A DNA stretch of 64,000 nucleotides from Streptomyces sp. PsTaAH-137. Lineage in GTDB: Bacteria > Actinomycetota > Actinomycetes > Streptomycetales > Streptomycetaceae. This document shows, in pieces, positions 35,405 through 36,508 of this stretch. The notes beneath the pieces are model-generated. The model saw only the letters and a list, made by a program, of their open reading frames with translations. It ran no database searches and was not told where the DNA came from. Made by a program: the position numbers and the translations under genes. Positions within the stretch are counted from its first letter, which is position 1. Each line of letters begins with the position of its first letter. The DNA lies in assembly GCF_003259365.1 (NCBI RefSeq), contig NZ_QLLY01000012.1, forward strand, positions 129,089-193,088, written 5' to 3'.

Positions 35405-35444
35405 GCAGAAGGCCCGCCCCGTCGGAACGGGGCGGGCCTTCTGC
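35405..35444 (-). terminator. Terminator of tRNA-Gly
   Basis: A 17-bp perfect stem, GCAGAAGGCCCGCCCCG / CGGGGCGGGCCTTCTGC, lies 3 bases downstream of the tRNA-Gly 3' end on the minus strand. Confidence 0.85.
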
Positions 35445-35447
35445 TTC

Positions 35448-35520
35448 TGGAGCGCCGGGCAGGCCTTGCACCTGCATTTCCCCGCAGGAAGCGGGGCGTC
35501 TTTCCTTGGACCACCAACGC
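35448..35520 (-). tRNA. tRNA-Gly(UCC), structurally unusual
   Basis: On the minus strand the acceptor GCGTTGG pairs with CCGGCGC (two G-U pairs). The D-arm is GTCC-AAGGAA-AGAC and the anticodon arm CCCCG-CTTCCTG-CGGGG gives anticodon UCC. The T-arm is GCAGG-TGCAAGG-CCTGC, and U73 and CCA are encoded. Glycine identity elements (G1-C72, C2-G71, G3-C70, C35, C36, U73) are kept. The T-loop has UGCA where T-psi-C-purine is normal, and position 37 is U instead of a purine. Confidence 0.8.
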
Positions 35521-35561
35521 ACTGTTCCGCTCTGCCAGTTGCAGCGCCGAACGCAAGATCG

Positions 35562-35591
35562 ACTATAGCCCACTACTCCTGCTCCTGTGAA
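35562..35591 (-). promoter_or_regulatory. Promoter of tRNA-Gly
   Basis: TTCACA (35591-35586), an 18-bp spacer and TATAGT (35567-35562) on the minus strand lie about 42 bases before the tRNA and overlap the 3' end of the LuxR-type gene. This is one of the closest matches to the sigma-70 consensus in the window. Confidence 0.65.
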
Positions 35592-36277
35592 GCGGAAGGC
35601 GGTTCGCCGCCCACCGGGCCCGCCCGGTCGAGCAGGCCGGTGCGGGCCGCGAGGGCGGCGGCCTCCAGACGGGAGCCGACGCCGAGCTTCATCAGGACCC
35701 GCTGGACGTGGGTGCGGGCCGTGGACGGGGCGATGCCCATGCCGGCCGCGATCAGCCGGGTGTCCTCGCCGTCCGCGACCCGGACCAGGACCTCCACCTC
35801 GCGCGGGGTCAGCATCTGGAGAAGCCGCTGCCCCTCGTCGTCCGGCTGGGCCGCGGGGTTGAGCAGTTCGCTGAACGCGCCCTGGAGCAGCGCCGGGGCC
35901 ACGGCGGCCTCACCCGCGCGCGCCTTCATCAGGGCCCGCTCCACTCCCTCTATGCGCTCGTCGTGCCGTACGTAGCCGGAGGCGCCGGCGGCGAACGCCG
36001 CGGCGATGCCGCGCGGGGACGGGACCGGGCCCAGGACCACCACCGCCACCTGGGGGCGCTCCTTCTTGATCCGGACGACCGGGTCGAAGGTGCCGGGCTC
36101 CGCCGGGGCCGACGTGCCGAGCAGGCAGACCTCCGGGGCGCGGGAGATGACCAGTTCGGCGGCGCCCGCGGCGGGCGCTGCCGCGGCGAGGACACGGTGT
36201 CCGCGCAGTTTCAGTGCCGAGGCGAGCGCCTCGGCCAGCAGTCGGTGGTCGTCGACCACCATGAGCCGCACTCCCAT
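35573..36277 (-). CDS. LuxR-type regulator with phospho-acceptor-less receiver
   Basis: The 234-aa product has MVVDDHRLL at the receiver start, but where VLLD is expected it has CLLGTSAP (Gly54), and the conserved Lys region reads GYVRHDERIE. The phospho-acceptor Asp and switch Lys are therefore both absent. The LuxR HTH (LTPREVEVLVRVADGEDTRLIAAGMGIAPSTARTHVQRVLMKLGV) is intact. The ATG at 36277 follows GGGGGG. It is likely controlled by ligand or protein contact or is constitutive, and no kinase is nearby. Confidence 0.82.
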   Translation of the reverse strand: MGVRLMVVDDHRLLAEALASALKLRGHRVLAAAAPAAGAAELVISRAPEVCLLGTSAPAEPGTFDPVVRIKKERPQVAVVVLGPVPSPRGIAAAFAAGASGYVRHDERIEGVERALMKARAGEAAVAPALLQGAFSELLNPAAQPDDEGQRLLQMLTPREVEVLVRVADGEDTRLIAAGMGIAPSTARTHVQRVLMKLGVGSRLEAAALAARTGLLDRAGPVGGEPPSASQEQE

Positions 36278-36508
36278 CGGGCCAACCCCCCAGTTCGACC
36301 CAGAAGCAGCACATGTCCCCTGGGCCCCCCACGGACAGGCGAGCCCCCCGACTCCCCGTCCTCCTTCATCCACCGGAAGCTACACGCTTGTTCGACGTCG
36401 CGCGCCCCCTACCGGTCAGAAGCGGCCCGCAATGCTGAAATCGCAGCTTTTCGGGGGTGATTGGGGGTGCGGGAGCGTAAAAGCAGGTCACCTGGCGCCC
36501 GGTTGTGA

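Follow-up and report, generated by a model that had tools for sequence, protein, structure and literature searches.

The locus examined here raises the question of what purpose is served by a tRNA-Gly(UCC) with an altered T-loop, and whether such a molecule decodes glycine codons or is set aside for other chemistry. In the window, that is, the whole 64,000-nt stretch of DNA analysed, ARAGORN found two tRNA genes, one of which is a tRNA-Gly(tcc) on the minus strand (35448-35520). Read along that strand, it consists of an acceptor stem (GCGTTGG/CCGGCGC, followed by U73), the bases TG, a D arm (GTCC/AGAC around AAGGAA, with a C13-A22 mismatch), a G, an anticodon stem (CCCCG/CGGGG) closing the 7-base loop CTTCCTG (U33, UCC, U37), the bases AAAT, a T-stem (GCAGG/CCTGC) closing the loop TGCAAGG (U54, G55, C56, A57, A58), and a final CCA. 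The body from G1 to U73 spans 70 nt (35451..35520) and scores 103.3 bits with a covariance model, R1, that we built from 12 variants. The anticodon lies at 35487..35489, with U37 at 35486, the T-loop at 35464..35470, with G55 at 35469 in the place of psi55, and the encoded CCA at 35448..35450. The first-pass annotation had described a full tRNA-Gly(UCC) cloverleaf with U37, U54-G55-C56 and an encoded CCA, and ARAGORN and the minus-strand sequence confirm each of these points. The Rfam tRNA model RF00005 did not report the gene at its gathering score, nor was the gene among the 69 RF00005 matches in the whole genome (E <= 0.001) or the 21 matches in a lax search of the window.

The gene is an addition to a normal tRNA-Gly(UCC). 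Among the tRNA loci fetched from the source genome, ARAGORN listed 69 genes, including tRNA-Gly with the anticodons GCC (3), CCC (1) and UCC (2), and all but the odd tRNA have a GTTCRA T-loop. A canonical tRNA-Gly(UCC) query gave one match (E <= 1e-20) in each of 61 Streptomyces genomes. Counting the canonical genes, as had been proposed earlier, thus shows that the odd tRNA is not the sole UCC gene of its genome. The two tRNAs share a GCG...CGC-U73 acceptor end and the UCC anticodon, whereas the canonical one has the T-loop TTCGATT and A37, and the odd one has UGCAAGG, U37, a 6-nt D-loop and other pairs at positions 49-65 and 51-63 of the T-stem, and is missed by RF00005.

Relatives of the odd tRNA are widespread in the genus. 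A DNA search detected it in 25 of the 61 Streptomyces genomes, with up to five matches each, and a larger genus sample contained it in 162 of 295 genomes (E <= 1e-11), where individual genomes have as many as nine copies. Among 296 genomes sampled across the class, R1 matches above 60 bits were confined to Streptomyces; those scoring about 46 bits resemble ordinary tRNAs, and one of these in the source genome (C21:39885) is also an RF00005 match. A family-wide sample of 150 genomes (E <= 1e-8) contained the tRNA in 20 of the 38 listed Streptomyces and in 4 other genomes, which suggests a frequency outside the genus of 4 in 112 if the 106 unlisted genomes are all non-Streptomyces, as the table order indicates. 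Samples of more than 40 genomes were scored with stricter filters, and diverged members may therefore have been missed. A pattern scan of named genomes returned at least 119 stretches, and the 80 matches listed belong to Streptomyces except for one Actinacidiphila. The 178 copies with distinct flanks that were used for further counts are largely bound to this search pattern, their number being a minimum for the named genomes. In all 178, C74 is present, while the CCA is encoded in 71 and not encoded in 107. The open-access full-text literature searched held no description of the odd tRNA, subscription papers and preprints lying outside the scope of that search.

Some other tRNA-Gly genes encountered in these searches deviate in different ways. 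A second non-canonical tRNA-Gly(UCC), type B, has C33 and a normal T-loop and was seen in 2 of the 61 genomes (L309, G014:C101:153954-154025; L310, G025:C1:4237951-4238022); it may stand apart from the family or be ancestral to it. Two diverged relatives, L308 (G181:C41:16948-17019) and L328 (G421:C2:3885038-3885108), keep G55 and differ in their D-loops, with L328 lacking GG18-19, and are possible intermediates.

For the analysis of conservation, 60 chosen loci gave 65 matches and 28 distinct rows, partial matches (L092, L107 and L115) having been dropped before counting. The search pattern fixed letters in the D-loop and T-arm, and the alignment includes some pattern-found copies, which are therefore unusable for judging conservation in those parts. 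Over the 28 rows, 96.3% of cells in the cloverleaf are paired, and 12 of the 21 pairs change on both sides (mean of shuffles 4.0, with none of 500 as high), including all five pairs of the anticodon stem; slid structures reached at most three such pairs. Fitting the alignment to the structure biases this test in the structure's favour, but the changes in the anticodon stem can also be read directly from the raw sequences. The 13-22 pair is mismatched in 22 of the 28 rows. This comparison indicates that the family is under selection as a tRNA cloverleaf, and because relatives exist and their pairs covary, the gene in the window is not a product of chance. A few truncated copies (L269 and the one at G024:C53) are what one would expect of decaying tRNA pseudogenes spread with plasmids, but covariation so far above that of shuffles, together with the conserved -10 box and hairpins, makes such decay a most improbable account of the family.

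The bases expected to specify glycine are retained throughout. Bacterial glycine identity is given in passages of one source (PMC9976931) as G1-C72, C2-G71, C35, C36 and U73; because of U73, moreover, D-aminoacyl-tRNA deacylase acts poorly on Gly-tRNA-Gly. In the family, G1-C72, C2-G71, G3-C70, U73 and the anticodon bases CC are invariant in all 28 rows, the numbering of CC being ambiguous inside 6-base anticodon loops, and the glycine identity elements noted in the first-pass annotation are therefore upheld.

The features associated with decoding present another picture. Translational tRNAs carry U54, U55 and C56 in the T-psi-C loop, a purine at position 37, and U33 within a 7-base anticodon loop. 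Aligning the T-loops, as suggested earlier, reveals U54-G55-C56 in every one of the 28 distinct rows. Position 37 is a pyrimidine in 20 rows and a purine in 5 (A in 4, G in 1), with a gap in the other 3, and over the larger set a pyrimidine occupies it in 162 of 178 copies, with U in the window copy. U33 and a 7-base anticodon loop are kept in 163 of 178 copies, the window copy included. Another 15 copies are 69 nt long with a 6-base anticodon loop, and 6 of these, representing five core variants, have A in the place of U33, as does L327. An ordinary though deviant isoacceptor reading GGA and GGG codons would agree with the complete cloverleaf and with UCC following U33 in a 7-base loop in most copies, but G55, the prevailing pyrimidine 37, the shortened loops, the absence of U33 from 6 of the 178 copies and the presence of a canonical UCC gene in all 61 genomes make this quite unlikely. 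A folded elbow is conceivable with G55, through G19-C56 and U54-A58, so some ribosomal use is possible, which counts against a strictly non-ribosomal tRNA. In L184, L327 and four other 69-nt core variants, the triplet following the A is ACC, GCC or UCC; passages of PMC8007984 describe tRNA-Gly(ACC) as universally absent.

Pairs of the T-stem that matter for EF-Tu have also changed. Passages of PMC4052509 name G49-U65 and G51-C63 as the strong EF-Tu pairs. Among the five canonical tRNA-Gly of the source genome, G49-U65 is present in all and G51-C63 in three, and the odd tRNA has G49-C65 and A51-U63 in their place. Across the family, position 51-63 is A-U in 27 of 28 rows and U-A in the remaining one, never G-C, and G-C occupies 49-65 in 27 of 28.

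To our knowledge, few lineages have documented tRNAs dedicated to non-ribosomal use, the staphylococci being the chief case, and the first-pass annotation gives the T-loop of the staphylococcal bridge tRNA-Gly as of the UGC type. The pentaglycine-bridge tRNA-Gly(UCC) of staphylococci, as portrayed in parts of PMC4052509 and PMC8007984, resembles the Streptomyces tRNA in being an extra gene beside normal tRNA-Gly, in occurring in several copies per genome, in its altered T-loop and in having A51-U63 instead of G51-C63; it is charged by GlyRS, and the Streptomyces tRNA has the glycine identity bases. In the non-proteinogenic staphylococcal tRNAs, A49-U65 and A51-U63 replace G49-U65 and G51-C63, and GG18-19 is replaced by UU or CU (passages of PMC4052509), whereas the Streptomyces family has lost both strong pairs but mostly has G49-C65 and retains GG18-19 in 26 of 28 rows. 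It further differs in belonging to another phylum, in being dispersed over plasmids and absent from about half of Streptomyces genomes, and in having a shortened anticodon loop in some members; likeness was judged by features. The resemblance put forward in the first-pass annotation thus extends to A51-U63 and the changed T-loop and stops at GG18-19 and the 49-65 pair. Judged by these features, the odd tRNA probably works like the staphylococcal non-proteinogenic tRNA-Gly while failing part of that group's sequence definition.

On balance, we think it probable that the odd tRNA is a non-proteinogenic tRNA-Gly that is charged by GlyRS, kept from translation and used as a glycine donor by a non-ribosomal transferase. 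A small stand-alone transcription unit would yield a product processed like a tRNA, which the ordinary glycyl-tRNA synthetase would charge with glycine. Weak contact with EF-Tu, due to A51-U63 and the loss of G49-U65, would keep the Gly-tRNA out of translation, and an elbow and anticodon loop with G55, U or C at 37 and sometimes a 6-base loop or no U33 would be unfit for the ribosome. The charged tRNA could then serve as a glycine donor for a non-ribosomal transferase. It would be an optional component, and normal tRNA-Gly has to suffice in species that lack it. The earlier proposal of a non-ribosomal glycine donor evading EF-Tu is thus favoured, by comparison, through the extra UCC gene, the retained identity bases and the lost decoding and EF-Tu features. 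The retention of GG18-19 in most rows and of U33 with a 7-base loop in most copies, and a 49-65 pair that is G-C and not the staphylococcal A-U, together with the lack of a linked consumer gene, speaks against it.

The genomic surroundings describe a dispersed unit. The 178 copies fall into about 103 gene contexts, contexts having been joined when they shared two protein clusters, and short loci may inflate this number. They have no common neighbour, the most widespread protein cluster being found in 7 of the 103 contexts, so that synteny was rejected as an explanation for their presence. In the window, the unit sits between a gene for a LuxR-type regulator (35573..36373, minus strand, longest form of the ORF), which ends just upstream of the tRNA and is a neighbour outside the unit, and a symporter operon. 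The first-pass annotation had asked whether the locus beside the symporter is conserved, and it is not: the LuxR-type gene occurs in 59 of the 61 Streptomyces genomes, and the tRNA lies beside it in its own genome only (coordinates compared by eye). Where copies lie 1-2 kb apart (L237, L313, L119, L200 and L185), the intervening genes differ, which excludes a repeated gene between them. Since the repeat at these sites covers no more than about 110-160 bp around the tRNA, it seems that a small cassette and no larger island is copied or kept alike, with gene conversion as an alternative for the likeness of nearby copies. In L269 (near 829) and L092 (G024:C53), the 5' part of the tRNA is changed or truncated and the 3' half is kept with the downstream hairpin; these forms might have been left by recombination inside the tRNA gene.

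Plasmids are among the carriers. The family was found at 136 places in 70 of 72,556 plasmid records (Streptomyces 68, Streptantibioticus 2), including S. clavuligerus plasmids such as pSCL4. A search of phage records and a search of viral contigs, one of each, gave no family match, and a phage origin was set aside on these grounds. We read 11 plasmid neighbourhoods, and the 9 that are annotated contained no Fem transferase and no tRNA synthetase. It is a serious possibility, falling somewhat short of probable, that this is a nomadic tRNA, a promoter-tRNA-terminator cassette of about 150 bp that spreads as accessory cargo over the chromosomes and linear plasmids of Streptomyces and supplies the wall or natural-product chemistry with glycine independently of translation. 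If so, a dedicated non-ribosomal tRNA would be carried like a metabolic gene and would give its host a private glycine pool.

The flanks of the tRNA are conserved in part. Upstream of the window copy, the promoter scan found TTCACA-N18-TATAGT, which matches the consensus at 10 of 12 positions (mean of shuffles 0.0), with the -35-like TTCACA at 35586..35591 and the -10 box TATAGT at 35562..35567, both on the minus strand, as are the features that follow. Taking one copy per context with full flanks (n=103), 100 show TANNNT at about -47 relative to the tRNA. The -35 region yields no consensus: of these 100 contexts with a -10, 85 have a best match of 2 or 3 of 6 positions. The near-consensus promoter described earlier therefore exists in the window, but it is the -10 that the family keeps, and the -35 of the window copy is probably incidental, since no -35 consensus spans the 103 contexts. 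The motif GATCTTG directly after the -10 (35554..35560) recurs in 54 of 103 contexts and its GATC in 87, and GATC stands at the same place in 4 of the 69 tRNA genes of the source genome, the odd one included. Family members share this -10 with GATC and no -35, an arrangement seldom found upstream of the source genome's tRNA genes, and it could be the signature of a particular regulator or sigma factor. The 5' leader (35521..35556) contains a stem-loop according to folding against shuffles, and leaders fold with a mean z of -2.1 over 103 contexts, compared with -1.1 for the 69 tRNA genes of the source genome, the odd one included. An ungapped test of column covariation gave no clean helix register in the leader, and we therefore claim per-sequence folding alone. 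The downstream 55 nt fold strongly, with a mean z of -5.8 over the 103 contexts. In the window, a 17-bp perfect hairpin (35405..35444) starts 3 bases past the CCA, where the first-pass annotation had placed a terminator; the hairpin stands, but it lacks a clear U-run, and a terminator scan listed no minus-strand terminator there.

The enzyme that would use the glycine is the less certain part of the proposal. Streptomyces coelicolor FemX and VanK are named as aminoacyl-tRNA users of the wall in passages of PMC4052509, and they are plausible users of the odd tRNA. FemAB domains were detected in 61 of 61 Streptomyces genomes, and an enzyme for LL-Dap-Gly is therefore likely to be present throughout this set, whereas the odd tRNA is optional (25 of these 61) and shows no genetic linkage to FemX/VanK-type genes. 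Carriers have more FemAB matches than non-carriers (4.12 against 3.14, p 0.038), but their genomes are also larger (9.17 against 7.97 Mb on average, p 0.0002), and with genome size included the number of Fem genes had no effect on the presence of the tRNA (p 0.56), so that Fem dosage was discarded. In seven of the 25 carriers there are just two FemAB matches, a pair that we read as one split gene, and two of those seven have four and five copies of the tRNA. Gene linkage was likewise rejected: with 10 Fem queries from 10 genomes, no Fem gene was found beside any of the 178 copies within up to 5 kb on each side, less at short loci. Because FemAB is present in all 61 genomes and the tRNA is not, with no Fem gene nearby and no effect of Fem number, the odd tRNA is not needed for the wall in general. 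The link to the peptidoglycan bridge drawn in the first-pass annotation is not supported by these counts, nor by the presence of the tRNA in 162 of the 295 genomes. FemX/FemABX transferases that add Gly to LL-diaminopimelate are still ranked first as consumers, as a tentative choice well below an even chance.

Ranked second, and rather doubtful, are other Gly-tRNA-using enzymes of accessory metabolism. The same molecule would then be dedicated not to the wall but to natural-product or accessory enzymes, such as Fem-like transferases of antibiotic clusters or PEARL ligases. Its patchy, plasmid-borne presence in many contexts and its greater frequency in larger genomes are as expected of accessory metabolism. 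Of the 9 annotated plasmid copies, one has a type I PKS and another a ketosynthase III gene at a distance of up to about 6 kb. Against this, no neighbour recurs in more than 7 of 103 contexts, and seven carriers have, by our reading, a single split FemAB gene. The domain PF04738 (lantibiotic dehydratase/PEARL) is found in 45 of the 61 genomes and has no match in 7 of the 25 carriers, which speaks against it as the consumer. One carrier, G016, has two FemAB matches only and no PF04738, yet it holds two copies of the tRNA. We regard this alternative as rather unlikely.

Cargo dispersed over plasmids and many contexts, with the CCA unencoded in more than half of its copies, could also be a tRNA-like regulatory RNA or decoy, for example a sink for GlyRS or for toxins that target tRNA-Gly. 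Toxins that acetylate Gly-tRNA-Gly through U73 and G71 are known from passages of PMC9976931. Against a decoy, no protein cluster of whatever kind, the clusters being compared without annotation, recurs beside the tRNA in more than 7 of 103 contexts, phage records and viral contigs gave no match in one search each, and the retained glycine identity elements fit charging; we consider this reading improbable.

The earlier observation is thereby confirmed and is larger than reported, with peptidoglycan as one of two or three possible uses. If the odd tRNA is indeed a non-proteinogenic tRNA-Gly, it would represent a second case of a dedicated non-ribosomal tRNA, widespread in the main antibiotic-producing genus, often in several copies and plasmid-borne, and the sharing of aminoacyl-tRNA among protein synthesis, wall building and natural products would become testable. 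Two minor observations concern the other tRNA genes of the source genome: ARAGORN listed four tRNA-Trp genes among the loci examined, and C27:20292-20831 holds an array of five tRNAs, in which the RF00005 scores suggest two alternating types.
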